From Trueperaceae bacterium (GTDB lineage Bacteria > Deinococcota > Deinococci > Deinococcales > Trueperaceae), in contig JAABTL010000025.1 of the NCBI GenBank assembly GCA_011389865.1, forward strand, positions 1 to 37,686: a stretch of DNA of 37,686 bases. The letters run 5' to 3'. The notes under the pieces are model-generated. The model was given only the letters and a program-made list of their open reading frames with translations, did no database searches and had not been told where the DNA came from. The translations under genes and the position numbers were made by a program. Below, one piece after another: positions 979 through 6,956 of the stretch; the first letter of the stretch is position 1; every line of letters begins with the position of its first letter.

Positions 979-1766
979 GCGACGCTCTCCGCGAGGCGCC
1001 GGAAGTGGGCGGCGCTGGCGCGTACGCCATCCGCGCCGGTGGTGCCGATCTCCAGGCAGATCGTGCCGGGGAAGCTCGCCAGGTAGGCGGCGTAGGGCGC
1101 GTAGTCGAGCGTGCCCTGGTCGGTCGGCAGGTGCTCGTCGGCCGTGCCGTGGTTGCCGTGCACGTGGAGGTGGACGATGCGCTCCCCCAGGGTCTCGAGG
1201 TAGGCGTCGACGGCGGCGAAGCCCTCGCGGGTGCCCTGGACGTGCGCGTGACCGGTGTCGAGGCAGTTGCGGATGCCGTGGCGGTCGGTGAGGTCGCGCA
1301 GCTGCTCCGGCGTCCGCAGGAAGTCGTCCTCGCCGAGGACCAGGTTCTCCATGGCGATCGGCACGCTCGAGCCGGCCACCTGCGCCAGGGCCTCGTCCAG
1401 GGCCGCGGCCGCGAGCGCGTCGGCCTGCGGGTGGCGCAGGTAGTGCATGCCGCTGTGCAGCACGCCGCAAACGGCGCCGACCTCGTCGGCGTACGCCAGG
1501 CCGGCGAGCGTGCGCTCCACCGAGGCCCGCCGTGCCACCGGCATGAGCGAGGCGAGGTTGAGGTCCACGTAGCTCAGGTGCACCGTGGTGCCGACGCCGG
1601 TGGCACGGGTCAGGTCGCGGATCAGCTTCGGGTCCTGCAGCGTCGGCAGCACCTCGTGGAGGTCGAAGGAGAGCTCGACGAAGTCGAGGTCCAGTTCGGT
1701 CGCCAGGCGGAAGGCGGCCTCGGTGTCGAGCATGCGGGCGGTCATGGGTGAGAAGCCGAGTCGCAT
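975..1766 (-). CDS. Sugar phosphate isomerase/epimerase (AP-endonuclease-2-like TIM barrel)
   Basis: A 263-residue protein of the xylose-isomerase-like TIM barrel family (IolE/AP-endonuclease 2 fold). It begins MRLGFSPMTA and shows the expected metal-ligand stations in order: a Glu in IAMENL, Asp and His in NCLDTGHAHV, His in HLHVHGN and a C-terminal Glu in ICLEIG. Members isomerise or epimerise sugars or inositol derivatives, and the substrate cannot be read from the sequence. Its ATG at 1766 shares a base with the TGA of the binding-protein gene (TGATG), and its own stop overlaps the next start. The gene is therefore translationally coupled inside the transporter operon and likely acts on the imported compound. 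Confidence 0.83.
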   Translation of the reverse strand: MRLGFSPMTARMLDTEAAFRLATELDLDFVELSFDLHEVLPTLQDPKLIRDLTRATGVGTTVHLSYVDLNLASLMPVARRASVERTLAGLAYADEVGAVCGVLHSGMHYLRHPQADALAAAALDEALAQVAGSSVPIAMENLVLGEDDFLRTPEQLRDLTDRHGIRNCLDTGHAHVQGTREGFAAVDAYLETLGERIVHLHVHGNHGTADEHLPTDQGTLDYAPYAAYLASFPGTICLEIGTTGADGVRASAAHFRRLAESVA

Positions 1767-2968
1767 CAGCGTTCCTCCAGGGCGCGACGCTGGGCCTCGG
1801 CCAGCGACGCCTGCGGCGACTGGTTGCCGCGCAGGGTGCGTTCGAGGGCGTCGTCGATCAGCCGGCGCCAGGCGTCGAACTGCGGGATCCGCGGTCGCGG
1901 CACGGCCAGCTCGAGCTGCGTGAGCGCCGCCGCGCGGTTGGGGTCGGCGGCGTAGAAGTCCTCCAGCAGCGGGATGGCCGAGCGCCGGACGGGGATGTAG
2001 TACGAGGCCTCGACCCAGCGCGCGAGGTTCGCGGGCTCCACCAGGAAGCGCCAGAAGTCGAAGGCGGCCAGCCGCTGCGCCTCGTTGGAGCCGCGCATGA
2101 CGACCAGCTGGGCGCCACCCAACGGCACGCGCCCGCCGTCCTCCATGGGCACCGGCGCCGCGGCGAGCTCGAAGCCGACCGAGAAGCGGCGCACGTCCGG
2201 CCAGTTGGCGATGCTGGCGAAGGTCATGAGGTTGCGGGTGCGGACGAAGGAGAGGATGGCGGGCGTGCTCTCGGCGGCACCGTAGAAGGCGAGCTGGCGC
2301 GAGCGAGCCAACTCGTGCAGCATGGTCAGCGCCTCGATCGCCTCGGGCCCGTCGAGGTTGGGGGTGCCGTCGTCGAGCGCGAGGACGCCGCCGCGACTCA
2401 GCACCATCATCTCGAAGAGCCACGAGTCGCCGACGAACATCGCGCCCTGGGCCGCGCGCGTGGTCAACTCGGCGGCGGCCGCGGCGAAGGCGTCCCAGGT
2501 GGCGGGCGGCGCCACCCCCGCCTGGCGCAGTGCATCGGCGTTGTAGTACATCACCGGCGTCGAGGCGTTCCATGGGAGCCCGTAGCGGGCGCCGTCGAAC
2601 TCGCCGTACCCCCACAGGCCGGGGTAGAAGTCGGCCACGACGTCCTCGGGCAGCGTGGCCGCGAGGTCGGCGAGGTCCTGCACGGCGCCGTCGCCCACCA
2701 GTCGCGGGAAGAAGCCGATCTCCGCCTGGAACAGGGTGGGCTCGTTGCCCGTGCCGAAGGCGGCCACCAGCCGCGTCTGCGCCTCGGGGTAGGAGCCGAC
2801 GTAGCGGACGTCGACCCGCACCTCGTCCTGGGCGGCGTGGTAGGCGTCGACCAGCTCGACGACGGCGTCCTCGACGCCCTCCATCGAGTGCCAGAAGGTG
2901 ATCGTGGTCTGCGCATGGGCCGTGCTCAGCAGCAGCGCGGCGGCGATCGCGGCGAGGGACCTGTTCAT
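1766..2968 (-). CDS. ABC transporter extracellular solute-binding protein, UgpB-like
   Basis: A 400-residue secreted binding protein with a clear signal peptide (MNRSLAAIAAALLLSTAHA, cleavage likely after AHA). The mature N-terminus reads TTITFWHSMEG, nearly the same as in the glycerol-3-phosphate binding protein UgpB. Other family blocks are GNEPTLFQAEIG, GLPWNASTPVMYYN, and SYYIPVRR with a C-terminal region ending in NQSPQASLAEAQRRA. The family (PF13416/PF01547) captures sugars, polyols or glycerol phosphates for the two permeases encoded just upstream (58 bp gap). No ATPase gene is in the operon, which is common when a shared MsmK/UgpC-type ATPase serves several systems. The resemblance to UgpB is from memory of the family; the true ligand could be another sugar or phosphodiester. 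Confidence 0.86.
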   Translation of the reverse strand: MNRSLAAIAAALLLSTAHAQTTITFWHSMEGVEDAVVELVDAYHAAQDEVRVDVRYVGSYPEAQTRLVAAFGTGNEPTLFQAEIGFFPRLVGDGAVQDLADLAATLPEDVVADFYPGLWGYGEFDGARYGLPWNASTPVMYYNADALRQAGVAPPATWDAFAAAAAELTTRAAQGAMFVGDSWLFEMMVLSRGGVLALDDGTPNLDGPEAIEALTMLHELARSRQLAFYGAAESTPAILSFVRTRNLMTFASIANWPDVRRFSVGFELAAAPVPMEDGGRVPLGGAQLVVMRGSNEAQRLAAFDFWRFLVEPANLARWVEASYYIPVRRSAIPLLEDFYAADPNRAAALTQLELAVPRPRIPQFDAWRRLIDDALERTLRGNQSPQASLAEAQRRALEER

Positions 2969-3026: not shown

Positions 3027-3800
3027 TCACGAGCGGAACCCGGATTCGAAGACCTCGATGATGCGCTTCTCGAAGAACACGTACAGGACGATGAGCGGCA
3101 GGCTGGCGACCAGCGCGGCTGCGCCCAACAGGCCCCACTCGAAGGCGCGGGTGCGCAGCAGTTCGGTCAGGAAGGCCTGCACGGTCCACAGCGGCTCGCT
3201 CGTCATGATGCGAGGGTAGAGCACCAGGTTCCAGTGGGCGGCGAATGCCAGCACGGCGCTGGCGGTGAGTTCGGGCCGGAGGATCGGCGCGACGACGCTT
3301 CGGACGATCGTGACCTCGCCGGCGCCGTCGAGCCGGGCGGCCTCGATCACCTCCCAGGGGACCCGCCGTAGGCCCTGCAGGAGCAGGAAGACGACCAGCG
3401 GGCTGGCGAGGAAGGGCACCACCAGCGCGCCCAGCGTGTCGATGAGGGCCATCGTCTGCAGCTGCCGGTAGAGCGGCACCAGCAGCAGCTCGCTCGGCAG
3501 CGCCAGCAGCAGCATGACGAGGGCCAGCAGGCGCAGCCCGTTGCGGATCGCGTAGGCCGCGCCGAGCCCGAAGGCCAACTGGCCCGCGACCGCCAGCCCG
3601 GTGGCGGTGAACGACACCGCCATCGCCCGCCACAGACCCGTGCCACGCAGCGCGGCGAAGTTCTCGAGGCTGAAGCCGAAGGTCGCCAGGTTGGCGCGCA
3701 CCAGCGCCTCGGCCGGGATGAACGCCGCGTAGACCAACCACAGGAGCGGCAGCGCGACGAACGCCGCGAACGCCGCCGTGACCAGGCGCATCGCGATCAC
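3027..3800 (-). CDS. ABC sugar-type transporter permease (MalG/UgpE-like)
   Basis: A 257-residue inner-membrane permease with about six membrane segments. The EAA loop that docks on the ATPase is seen as IEAARLDGAGEVTIVRSVVAPILRP, typical of the MalG/UgpE subfamily (PF00528). I use the GTG at 3800, which overlaps the stop of the preceding permease gene (GTGA); an in-frame ATG lies three codons later at 3791. The C-terminus FFEKRIIEVFESGFRS ends in the short cytoplasmic tail usual for the family. It should pair with the permease at 3797-4660 to form the channel for the UgpB-like binding protein. Confidence 0.86.
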   Translation of the reverse strand: MIAMRLVTAAFAAFVALPLLWLVYAAFIPAEALVRANLATFGFSLENFAALRGTGLWRAMAVSFTATGLAVAGQLAFGLGAAYAIRNGLRLLALVMLLLALPSELLLVPLYRQLQTMALIDTLGALVVPFLASPLVVFLLLQGLRRVPWEVIEAARLDGAGEVTIVRSVVAPILRPELTASAVLAFAAHWNLVLYPRIMTSEPLWTVQAFLTELLRTRAFEWGLLGAAALVASLPLIVLYVFFEKRIIEVFESGFRS

Positions 3801-4660
3801 GTGGTCGCCTCCGACGCGCCGCGGCGCGCCAGAACGCGCGCCTGCAGGTACGCCACCACCAGGGTGATCACCAGCACGAAGAGCGTGATGGCGGCGCCGT
3901 ACCCGAGCTGGTAGCGCTCGAACGCGGTCTCGTAGAGGTAGTAGCCCAGCACCCGGGTGCTGCCGAAGGGGCCGCCGCGGGTGAGCAGGTAGACGGCCGT
4001 ATACGACTGCAGGCTGAACACGGTGCCGATGATCGTCAGGAACAGCATCGTGGGCCCGAGCATGGGCAGCACGATGAGGCGCCGCACCTCGCCCTCGGTC
4101 GCGCCATCGACGCGGGCCGCCTCCTTGACATCGCGCGGGATGCCGCGCAGCGCCGCCGAGGTGACCAGCACGCCGTAGCCGGTCTGCTGCCACAGGGTGA
4201 AGAGCACCACGTAGATCAGCGCGGCCCACGGTTGCGACGTCCACGGCAGCACCAGCCCGGTCAGCTCCGGGATGAGCCCGAAGTCCGGGTTGTACAGCAG
4301 GTACCAGGCGATCGCCGAGCCGCCCACGGTGATCAGCCCGGGAGCGAACAGCAGGGCCTTGATCGCCCGCTCGTAGCGCACGCCCTCGATCGCCAGCGCG
4401 ATGACCAGTGACAGCGTCAGGAAGGCCGGCAGGGCCATCGCCGCGAACAGGGCCGTGGTGCCCAGCGAGGCCCACAGCGCCTCGTCCGACAGCAGGCGCA
4501 CGAGGTTGGCCGCGCCCACCGGCAGCGGGTCGGTCGTCCCGCTCCAGCGCCAGGTGGCGAAGCGCAGCACCGACAGGAGCGGAAGGAGGCTGAACACCGC
4601 GAACACCAGGGTCGCGGGGAGGGCCAGCAGATGCGCGCGGGTGCGGACGCCGCGGATCAT
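3797..4660 (-). CDS. ABC sugar-type transporter permease (MalF/UgpA-like)
   Basis: A 287-residue permease from the ATG at 4660 (MIRGVRTRAHLLALPATLVF), with about six membrane segments and the EAA loop KEAARVDGATEGEVRRLIVLPML. It is the first full gene of the minus-strand uptake operon. The frame is also open upstream to a TTG at 4747, but that extension is Arg/Pro-rich and has no family counterpart. The chosen ATG overlaps the stop codon of a 26-codon leader ORF (ATGA), which supports it as the real start through translational coupling. There is no Shine-Dalgarno sequence directly before it. Confidence 0.84.
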   Translation of the reverse strand: MIRGVRTRAHLLALPATLVFAVFSLLPLLSVLRFATWRWSGTTDPLPVGAANLVRLLSDEALWASLGTTALFAAMALPAFLTLSLVIALAIEGVRYERAIKALLFAPGLITVGGSAIAWYLLYNPDFGLIPELTGLVLPWTSQPWAALIYVVLFTLWQQTGYGVLVTSAALRGIPRDVKEAARVDGATEGEVRRLIVLPMLGPTMLFLTIIGTVFSLQSYTAVYLLTRGGPFGSTRVLGYYLYETAFERYQLGYGAAITLFVLVITLVVAYLQARVLARRGASEATT

Positions 4661-4737
4661 GCGGAGGCGCGGCCGGGACCGCGGCGCGGCCGGCCGGCGG
4701 CTCGGCGTCGAGCGCGGGGGGCGGATCTCGCAGGCAT
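4657..4737 (-). CDS. Putative 26-codon leader ORF before the transporter permease
   Basis: A short open frame begins with ATG at 4737 (MPARSAPRARRR...) and ends in TGA at 4657-4659, overlapping the permease ATG (4660-4658) as ATGA. It is Arg-, Ala-, Gly- and Pro-rich and resembles no known protein. A TAGATT box lies 8 nt before its ATG. I infer that ribosomes loading on a nearly leaderless transcript translate it and then restart on the permease. It could instead be a chance frame in very G+C-rich DNA, or part of an N-terminal extension read from the TTG at 4747. Confidence 0.35.
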   Translation of the reverse strand: MPARSAPRARRRAAGRPRRGPGRASA

Positions 4738-4745
4738 GCCCTGCC

Positions 4746-4751
4746 AATCTA
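4746..4751 (-). promoter_or_regulatory. Candidate -10 box (TAGATT) of the uptake operon
   Basis: TAGATT on the minus strand, 8 nt before the leader-ORF ATG at 4737. No convincing -35 box is seen at 16-18 bp. It is proposed because the same spacing recurs before other genes in the window. Confidence 0.4.
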
Positions 4752-4850
4752 CCGTTCGCGTGTGCGCCAGGCGTCAGGCAGAATTCACGCGCGGGAGCCT
4801 AAGAACCCACGGGTGGCCCGTCGAGCCGGACCGCCGAACGACCCGACGTC

Positions 4851-5405
4851 TCAGCCGGCGCCCTCCTCCGCCGGCGCCCGCTCCTCCGCGAGCGCCCGGA
4901 TCTCGGGGGCGTCGGCGGCCTGCGTGAAGGCGGCGGCGGTCTCGTCGGAGAACGTCGTGTGGTAGAGGCGGCCGCCCTGCGCGTTGAGCGTCTCGGCGAG
5001 GGTGTCGATGGGCGTGTCCTTGACGAGGAGCAGCAGGGCCGAGCGGCCCGGCCTCAGGTCCTCGCTGACCTCTGCGATGAAGTCGTTGGCGATGCCGAAG
5101 TCGATCTTGCGGCCGGCGAGCCAGCTGACGCCGGCGCCCACGAGCGCACCGATCAGCGGCCCGCCGAACAGGAAGCCGATCAGCACGCCCCAGAGCCCGC
5201 CGGTGGCGACGACGCGGGTCTTCATCGCGGACTCCAGCGTCTGGCGGATGCGGACCTGACCGTCCTCGCCCTTCACCGCCACGGCGGCGTCCTCGATCGT
5301 CACCAGCGGCTTGCGGATGTTCTCGCGCTGCAAGCTGGCGACGTGCTGCAGCACCTCGGAGGCGCGGTCCGGGTGGGCGTAGGTGAACACGACGAGTTCG
5401 CTCAT
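4851..5405 (-). CDS. DUF1269-family membrane protein
   Basis: A 184-residue protein starting MSELVVFTYAHPDRASEVL. The N-terminal part has the Lys/Val-rich IRKPLVTIEDAAVAVKGEDG block, and a Gly-rich hydrophobic centre (GLWGVLIGFLFGGPLIGALVGAG, about residues 67-95) follows. This is the pattern of DUF1269 proteins, whose function is unknown. The C-terminus is Ala/Glu-rich. A good AAGGAGA ribosome-binding site sits about 8 nt before the ATG. It stands alone on the minus strand, divergent from the efflux operon starting near 5550. Confidence 0.8.
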   Translation of the reverse strand: MSELVVFTYAHPDRASEVLQHVASLQRENIRKPLVTIEDAAVAVKGEDGQVRIRQTLESAMKTRVVATGGLWGVLIGFLFGGPLIGALVGAGVSWLAGRKIDFGIANDFIAEVSEDLRPGRSALLLLVKDTPIDTLAETLNAQGGRLYHTTFSDETAAAFTQAADAPEIRALAEERAPAEEGAG

Positions 5406-5547
5406 GCTGGGTCTCCTTGGGCGCCGGGCGACCGCTTCGCGGACAGGGCGCGCATGACCCCATGATGGCGCGCTACGGCGTTCGAGCGCGTGTCGACCGA
5501 CCCGCCGCCGTTGGCGCGCGAAGGACCCTTCCTCATCGCTGCTCCGG

Positions 5548-5553
5548 TACGCT
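5548..5553 (+). promoter_or_regulatory. Candidate -10 box (TACGCT) of the efflux operon
   Basis: TACGCT lies 9 nt before the ATG (5563) of a short leader ORF. There is no clear -35 at 16-18 bp; TTGGCG at 5511 is too far away. It fits the short-leader promoter style seen elsewhere in the window. Confidence 0.4.
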
Positions 5554-5562
5554 GTGTGCAGG

Positions 5563-5616
5563 ATGACCTTCGCCGCCGCATTCACGTTCCCGACGACCAG
5601 ACCGCGGCCCGCGTGA
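5563..5616 (+). CDS. Putative 17-codon leader ORF coupled to the efflux adaptor gene
   Basis: ATG at 5563 opens a frame encoding MTFAAAFTFPTTRPRPA and ends in TGA at 5614-5616, which overlaps the GTG at 5613 (GTGA). The GTG begins a sequence with exactly the charged-then-hydrophobic N-terminus expected of an HlyD/MacA-type adaptor (TRRRRLWLVALALV). The peptide is rich in Phe, Thr and Pro and resembles no known protein. The overlap suggests translational coupling and perhaps a regulatory leader. It may instead be coincidental. Confidence 0.45.
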   Translation: MTFAAAFTFPTTRPRPA

Positions 5617-6956
5617 CGCGCCGTCGCCGCCTCTGGCTCGTCGCCCTCGCGCTCGTCATCGTGGCGGTCGCCGCCGTCGTCGCGTGGCAGGCCCGTCGAC
5701 CCGCCCCGGCCGTGGCGACCGTCGTCGAGCCGTTGGCACGCGGCGCCCTCGTTCGCGAGGTCACGGGTACCGGCGTGGTCGAGGCGGAGCGCGAGCGCGC
5801 GCTCTCCTTCTCGTTCGGCGGCAACGTCGCAGAGGTGCGCGCCGTCGAGGGCGAGGCGGTAGAGGCCGGTGAGGTGCTGGCGCGCCTCGACGTCGGCGCC
5901 CTCGAGCGGGATGCGGAGGCGGTCCGGGCGTCGCTCGCCTCGGCCCGCGCCGATCGTGCCCGCCTCGAACCCCAGCAGCGCGTCGACCGGCTCGAACTCG
6001 AGTCGACCGTCCGCCAGGCGGAGGACGCCCTGGTGCGGGCCGAGCGCGCCCGCGACGACGCCGCACGCGAGCTCGACCTCGCCCGCCGGCTGTTCGACGT
6101 CGGCGCGACCGCCAGCGAGGACGTCCGCGCGGTCGAGGAGGCGTTCGACGCCGCCGAGCGCGCCGAGCAGCAGGCACGACTCACCGCGTCCTCCGCCCGC
6201 TCGCGCCTGGTGAACCTCGAGCAGCTCGCCGCCGCCCAGATCGCCGCCAGCGACGCGCAGCTGGCGCAACTCGAGATCAACCTGCGCAACCTCGAGGCCC
6301 GGCTCCAGGACGCCGCCCTGGTGGCGCCCTTCGCCGGCGTCGTCACCCTCGTCAGCGTGCGGCCGGGCGACCAGGTGGCGACGCAGCCCGTGATCACCGT
6401 GGTCGACACCGACGAGTTGCAGGTACGCGGGCGCTTCGACGAGAACCGCGCCGTCGAGTTGCAGGTGGGCCAGGGCGCGGTGATCGTCCCGGACGCCGAC
6501 GCGGCCGTGCGGCTGGCGGCGAGGCTGGTGCGGATCAGTCCGGTCGCGCAGCGCGAGGGGGCCGGCGCGCAGGTGAGCGCCGTGCTCGCCTTCGACGAGC
6601 CGCCCGGGGCCACCGTGCGGCCCGGGTACACGGTCACCGTGCGCGTGCGGGTGCGCGAGATCGCCGACGCGCTCCTCGTGCCCCTCGAGGCGATCAGCGG
6701 ACGCGACGGCGCGAGCTACGTCGTGCGCGTCCTCGCCGACGACGGCGTCGGGACGGCCGAGCACGTGCCGGTCGAGGTGATCGAGCGCAACCCGACCGTC
6801 GCCGCCGTGCGCGTCGGGCCGGTCGCCGAGGGCGCAGCGCCAGGCGCGTTGCGCGAGGACGATCTCGTCGCCGTCGTCGACGTCGATGCGATCGCGGACG
6901 GCGCGCGCGTGTCGTTCGCGGCGCCGGACCGCGGGGGGCCCGCGCTTGGCGACTGA
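5613..6956 (+). CDS. Periplasmic adaptor (membrane fusion) protein of a MacAB-like efflux system
   Basis: A 447-residue adaptor from the GTG at 5613. It has an N-terminal anchor (about residues 6-24), a first lipoyl half (GTGVVEAERERALSFSFGG and AVEGEAVEAGEVLARLD), a long Ala/Glu/Arg-rich coiled coil (about 100-225), the returning lipoyl half (DAALVAPFAGVVTLVSVRPGDQV) and beta-barrel and membrane-proximal domains. This order is typical of HlyD/MacA/RND adaptors, which link an inner-membrane pump to an exit path. The frame is open further upstream to a GTG at 5490, but that stretch has no family character. The GTG at 5613 overlaps the stop of a short leader ORF. The next two genes supply the ATPase and permease, so the three form one tripartite-type exporter. 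Confidence 0.85.
   Translation: MTRRRRLWLVALALVIVAVAAVVAWQARRPAPAVATVVEPLARGALVREVTGTGVVEAERERALSFSFGGNVAEVRAVEGEAVEAGEVLARLDVGALERDAEAVRASLASARADRARLEPQQRVDRLELESTVRQAEDALVRAERARDDAARELDLARRLFDVGATASEDVRAVEEAFDAAERAEQQARLTASSARSRLVNLEQLAAAQIAASDAQLAQLEINLRNLEARLQDAALVAPFAGVVTLVSVRPGDQVATQPVITVVDTDELQVRGRFDENRAVELQVGQGAVIVPDADAAVRLAARLVRISPVAQREGAGAQVSAVLAFDEPPGATVRPGYTVTVRVRVREIADALLVPLEAISGRDGASYVVRVLADDGVGTAEHVPVEVIERNPTVAAVRVGPVAEGAAPGALREDDLVAVVDVDAIADGARVSFAAPDRGGPALGD

Follow-up and report, generated by a model that had tools for sequence, protein, structure and literature searches.

An ABC transporter permease gene of a Trueperaceae bacterium raises the question of how its translation begins: its ATG, at position 4660 of the minus strand, has no Shine-Dalgarno (SD) sequence of its own and overlaps the stop codon of a short frame that runs into it. 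The gene lies in a contig of 37,686 nucleotides (JAABTL010000025.1, assembly GCA_011389865.1), which was analysed in its whole length and is called the window here. The contig belongs to a genome of 3.05 Mb in 67 contigs with 73% GC, designated G000 in the following.

Two leaders with the same anatomy

On the minus strand, the -10 box TAGATT is followed after 8 nt by an ATG (4737-4735), from which 26 codons encode the peptide MPARSAPRARRRAAGRPRRGPGRASA and end at a TGA (4659-4657) that is merged with the permease ATG (4660-4658) in the sequence ATGA (Table 1). All of these elements, as well as the assignment of the downstream gene to the ABC permeases, had been put forward in a first-pass annotation of this DNA and are found in place. 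The mini-ORF resembles the small ORFs called “coupled” in mycobacteria (Shell et al., 2015): its 26 codons are inside their range of 5–50 codons, and ATGA is an overlap of the RTGA type. The same arrangement had also been described before an efflux operon on the plus strand, and there too the box, the mini-ORF and the overlap with the start of a HlyD-family gene are all present: TACGCT is followed after 9 nt by ATG 5563, and 17 codons lead to GTGA at position 5613. This efflux gene is overlain by a long antisense ORF, by which simple gene calling was misled. A DUF1269 protein (PF06897) is encoded at 4851-5405 on the minus strand, just upstream of the permease operon.

Table 1. Coordinates of the two leaders and of the genes that follow them in the window.
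Feature	Position	Strand	Evidence
-10 box TAGATT (TANNNT)	4746..4751	-	sequence; box present in 9 coupled and 6 direct orthologues
Mini-ORF of 26 codons ending in TGA, start at leaderless position	4657..4737	-	frame also kept in 8 other genomes, length variable
ATGA stop/start overlap	4657..4660	-	XTGA at offset -4 in 9/9 coupled orthologues
ABC transporter permease (BPD_transp_1), start ATG 4660	3797..4660	-	PF00528, E 2.3e-16; coding model start 4660
Second ABC permease, following in the same operon	3027..3800	-	PF00528, E 2.8e-11; gene model
Extracellular solute-binding protein, permease operon	1766..2968	-	PF13416, E 6.5e-41
-10 box TACGCT, efflux operon	5548..5553	+	sequence
17-codon leaderless mini-ORF, TGA 5614-5616 overlapping GTG 5613 (GTGA)	5563..5616	+	same architecture in G002
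HlyD-family membrane fusion protein (MFP)	5613..6956	+	PF13437, E 3.7e-11

The window contains two instances of TANNNT followed after 8 nt by ATG where 0.64 are expected, and two or more were obtained in 11 of 100 shuffles; for this reason the box pattern by itself is weak evidence, and the anatomy alone leaves the case undecided. The spacers of 8 nt (permease) and 9 nt (efflux) are at, or just past, the far edge of the 5–8 nt peak of this genome. A chance origin would be compatible with the -10 pattern of the window taken by itself; it is ruled out by the conservation among orthologues and by shuffles of the genome samples (see below).

We propose, with a probability of roughly 0.78, that the mini-ORF acts as a leaderless fore-cistron by which ribosomes are loaded for the permease start. 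RNA polymerase would start 6–8 nt downstream of TAGATT, i.e., at ATG 4737 or 1–2 nt before it, and a 70S ribosome would initiate at this 5′-terminal ATG without an SD sequence, translate 26 codons through a GC-rich segment, terminate at the TGA and re-initiate at the overlapping ATG 4660. The 8-nt position of the box, taken by itself, suggests a transcript that has no 5′ UTR and begins at the mini-ORF RTG, and the peptide itself is probably unimportant. The proposal draws on the anatomy, on the conservation of the box, the start and the exact overlap, on enrichment in the genome, and on the switching between coupled and direct leaderless starts.

Upstream of the permease -10 box, an element similar to CCTGACGC is found at 4771-4778 (minus strand) and also in L002, L003, L010, L091–L093 and L095, at about 20 nt from the box in the genus of the window and at about 10 nt in others. 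It is possibly an operator or a -35 element.

Permease starts across the family

Orthologues were searched in 39 genomes of the family including G000, and 23 of these have a permease orthologue at E 1e-60 or better; the 23 loci were examined, excluding L097, an additional partial match in G001. In a collection of named genomes, all permease relatives at 65–99% identity (L158–L175, 18 of 63 loci) are labelled Trueperaceae or Truepera, and the named relatives in the family are MAGs. A coupled start is found at nine of the 23 loci, in four genera (G000–G004, G043, G015, G018, and G017). At these loci an RTG is located 7–9 nt after the -10 box, the frames have 13, 13, 19, 19, 22, 26, 26, 27, and 36 codons, and the stop codon overlaps the in-frame permease start as ATGA or GTGA in every case. 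At six loci (G024, G042, G010, G022, G053, and G052) the box stands directly before an in-frame start of the permease, that is, the start is directly leaderless. The remaining loci comprise three without a box within 5–10 nt of a start (G041, G044, and G045) and five at which no combination of box and start accounts for the permease start (G016, G013, G014, G020, and G054); in these five the upstream sequence resembles, by eye, the end of another gene. The scan also left L001 and L014 with frames of 3–4 codons, L096 with a frame of 24 codons at a long distance upstream, L013 with a TTG, and L008 with an ATG in frame 2, located 10 nt after another TANNNT. The efflux mini-ORF is kept in G002 (TACGCT, 9 nt, ATG, GTGA) among the 18 loci found.

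The permease could instead start upstream, at TTG 4747 or another in-frame codon, so that the out-of-frame ORF would be a chance reading. Indeed, the permease frame of G000 is open from upstream of this TTG, and the six direct orthologues just described start in frame at a leaderless RTG. However, the codon is CTG in G002 and TTC in G004, with TTG kept only in G003; an in-frame TGA inside the leader closes the permease frame in G001; and the coding model places the start at 4660. Furthermore, TTG 4747 is partly inside the -10 box, so that it would not be in the transcript. Conservation of a TTG-initiated extension among orthologues had been named in the first-pass annotation as an observation that would speak against the mini-ORF; given the stop in G001 and the CTG and TTC codons in G002 and G004, this extension is rejected, and an upstream start is very improbable.

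Across genera the linkage between mini-ORF and permease is conserved, and the peptide and the frame length are not; some similarity of the peptides is seen within a genus. The mini-ORFs of G000 and G002 differ by 15 substitutions, with 3/4/8 at codon positions 1/2/3, and those of G003 and G004 by 4/5/4 over 20 codons. Such a pattern is at most weak evidence that the peptide is under selection, and the G000/G002 pair may leave room for weak selection. The bias to third positions in this pair (8 of the 15), the Arg-rich peptide in both genomes, and the Cys-rich leaderless leader ORFs reported from mycobacteria (PMC4633059) would agree with a regulatory leader peptide, an attenuator in which ribosome stalling on the mini-ORF codons sets permease expression. 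Against this stand a peptide that is not conserved across the nine coupled orthologues and, in G018 and G017, not rich in Arg, the S41 protease loci described below, which keep the overlap with differing lengths and sequences, the absence of a terminator-like hairpin in 4500–5700, and a leader that folds no better than shuffles (z 0.98). Neither a conserved peptide or codon run nor a terminator/antiterminator structure was found, and we consider an attenuator quite unlikely.

On the permease tree, the four start states require six changes, compared with a mean of 12.3 after shuffling, and a number as low was reached in none of 200 shuffles. Direct and coupled starts are mixed within two sister pairs, L090/L009 (support 100/98) and L089/L007 (support 82/92). 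The box and the GTG of L090 align with those of L009, so that a shared start opens the permease frame in one locus and a mini-ORF in the other. It is an even bet, in our view, that the mini-ORF works as a frame adaptor, with genes that drift from one type of start (direct, coupled, SD-leadered) to another, the S41 protease and Ddl genes having stayed coupled across most of the family. Under such a reading, promoters are fused to start codons, and an indel between promoter and gene would be tolerated in two of the three frames: a start in frame 0 merely lengthens the protein, and re-initiation at XTGA rescues the coupling frame.

Coupled starts in other genes

The first-pass annotation had suggested that the two cases represent a general way of starting transporter operons in this lineage, and had proposed a comparison with shuffled sequence. 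Samples of about 5–27% of each genome were used: 837,686 bases of G000 (the window plus 800 kb) with 758 called genes, G017 (363 called genes), G011 (198), G020 (197), and the outgroups G026 (194) and G029 (176); the gene starts in these statistics are model estimates. Within the 838-kb sample of G000, 11 of the 287 genes that could be tested have the coupled architecture in front of them, where shuffling gave a mean of 0.71; ten of the 11 are outside the window. Means after shuffling the upstream sequence are likewise exceeded in G017 (5/167 vs. 0.99) and G020 (6/123 vs. 1.30); in G011 the excess is weak (2/64 vs. 0.39, p 0.059). In the outgroup samples no enrichment over shuffles was found (G026, 0/61 vs. 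0.49; G029, 1/83 vs. 0.48, p 0.38).

Because shuffling the upstream sequence also destroys promoters, comparisons of boxed with unboxed mini-ORFs and of reading frames are sharper. Over the six genomes, 31 of 64 boxed mini-ORFs are coupled compared with 153 of 542 unboxed ones (p 0.001); by Fisher test of single genomes the difference is significant in G000 (p 0.013) and not in G017 (p 0.08), G020 (p 0.06), G011 (p 0.13), G026 (p 1), or G029 (p 0.52). Among boxed frames that reach the gene in the four Trueperaceae samples, the ratio of the coupling frame to the third frame is 36:13, compared with 54:51 in the control (p 0.007). Coupled mini-ORFs of G000 with a box at 5–9 nt number 14, about 3 being expected from the 18 found over 30 other positions. 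Single cases prove little, since any start codon followed by A contains TGA, which makes the -4 offset frequent in any case: of 166 unboxed mini-ORFs in G000, 37 end there. Direct leaderless starts, with TANNNT 5–9 nt before an in-frame start, are found in 175 of the 758 genes of G000; 28, 65, 55, and 25 genes have the box at 5, 6, 7, and 8 nt, respectively, vs. about 5 per position elsewhere.

The coupled set comprises 30 genes from the four Trueperaceae samples and was compared with 611 other genes that have room upstream. TM segments are predicted in 13/30 and 162/611 genes, respectively, when one or more is required (p 0.057), and in 5/30 and 67/611 when three or more are required (p 0.37), so that the enrichment before membrane-protein genes that had been anticipated does not emerge. 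Pfam searches on ten of the 14 coupled genes of G000 gave an ABC ATPase, UbiA, Dus, Ddl, a Clp ATPase, an S41 protease, a radical SAM protein, a cyclophilin, a beta-CASP nuclease, and a KaiC/AAA-type ATPase with a zinc ribbon, which we take to be RadA-like; two further genes of the 14 are the permease and the HlyD-family gene of the window. Of the earlier suggestion, generality in the lineage is thus borne out and specificity for transporters is not, the coupled start being found also before the S41 protease and Ddl genes: the two cases in the window are instances of a general, gene-unspecific type of start.

Four coupled genes of the samples were traced in the family through their best 30 (S41 protease), 30 (Ddl), 30 (UbiA), and 25 (Dus) matches. 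Among the best 30 S41 loci, 25 are coupled, in nine genera, two are direct, and three have neither start; the coupled ones differ in peptide and length, most frames having 8 or 9 codons, and the overlap stays. A GGAGG-like SD sequence is seen by eye before the start at the direct loci and at the three others. In another family of the order, S41 has a direct leaderless start in four of four genomes. Among the best 30 Ddl loci, 18 are coupled (19 if the direct reading is not given precedence), nine are direct, and three have neither. Many S41 loci (L221–L248) have a stretch like TTACCGTTCTCAT upstream of the -10 box TATACT, which possibly serves as a -35 element or as an operator. In many genomes of the family the start of the ddl mini-ORF is located inside a palindrome, ATGTGTAACTTACACAT, behind a TTGAC-like -35 sequence (L062:10245-10259; L251–L279). 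The palindrome is present without a mini-ORF in L279, and G000 has only one such site with up to two mismatches. Judged from these sequences it is probably an operator, and the shared beginning MCNLH/MCKLH of the ddl mini-ORFs, which is encoded by the palindrome, probably reflects this operator.

For UbiA, the best 30 loci comprise three coupled, 19 direct, and eight with neither; for Dus, the best 25 comprise one coupled, 14 direct, one with another mini-ORF, and nine with neither. These counts, the swapping of direct and coupled states between sister permeases, and several other efflux loci at which, by eye, the MFP start overlaps the stop codon (ATGA) of a longer upstream frame, could be taken to mean that the mini-ORF is a passive relic, either a frameshifted N-terminal extension of a gene that once had a direct leaderless start or the tail of an operon neighbour since lost, and that the permease is now started independently. 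However, a relic would hardly keep the box, the start, the open frame, and the exact overlap in nine genomes of four genera or at 25 of 30 S41 loci, and ATG 4660 offers no SD sequence for an independent start. We regard a relic as unlikely, and the loading of ribosomes by the mini-ORF as the better account. An SD-like motif is found in 14/30 coupled genes, 321/611 others, and 15/276 direct leaderless genes. At the permease start it is absent in G000–G002, G015, and G043 and present in G003, G004, G018, and G017. Where such a motif is present, as in these 14 of 30 sample genes, four of nine permeases, and 16 of 25 S41 genes, the mini-ORF may be only an aid.

Relation to known systems

The coupled class is already known from mycobacteria, and its candidate members described here place it in Deinococcota as well. 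The mycobacterial class consists of a leaderless RTG opening an ORF of 5–50 codons whose TGA overlaps the next RTG; in the account of Shell et al. (2015; PMC4633059) such ORFs are over-represented (23/220 vs. 32/1000 random), their linkage is conserved and their peptide is not, and delivery of ribosomes was proposed. The Trueperaceae mini-ORFs share an RTG at a leaderless position, the RTGA overlap, the over-representation, and the linkage without conservation of the peptide. They differ in belonging to another phylum and in being described from sequence, whereas the mycobacterial cases come with mapped transcription start sites and ribosome profiling; the switching with direct leaderless starts between sister species seen in Trueperaceae is not known to be part of the mycobacterial account.

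In Deinococcus-Thermus, TANNNT boxes about 6–7 bp before the start codons of about 30% of ORFs have been reported to function as promoters (Zhong et al., 2025; PMC12340547). The box shortly before a start codon is common to both cases; however, those boxes stand directly before genes, and the main text of that paper has no mention of small ORF, uORF, short ORF, or Truepera. Coupling of translation by ATGA or TGATG overlaps through termination-reinitiation was shown by reporter assays in H. volcanii and E. coli (PMC6728339, 2019), for annotated gene pairs rather than leaderless mini-ORFs. In a leaderless bicistronic design for Corynebacterium glutamicum, a fore-cistron raises the expression of the next gene and mutation of its start codon lowers expression; unlike the permease of the window, this artificial design has an SD sequence, placed in the fore-cistron (PMC10367133). 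Among the titles listed on leaderless starts, uORFs, and coupling in Truepera and Deinococcus, none reports such mini-ORFs in Deinococcota. The D. deserti transcriptome paper of de Groot from 2014 may mention them.

A practical consequence is that annotations placing the start codon upstream of such an overlap would be in error. The natural series of orthologues with direct, coupled, and SD-leadered starts is suited to testing termination-reinitiation at 5′-terminal mini-ORFs. The mycobacterial mode of ribosome delivery would be extended to a remote phylum, one where leaderless mRNAs are common.
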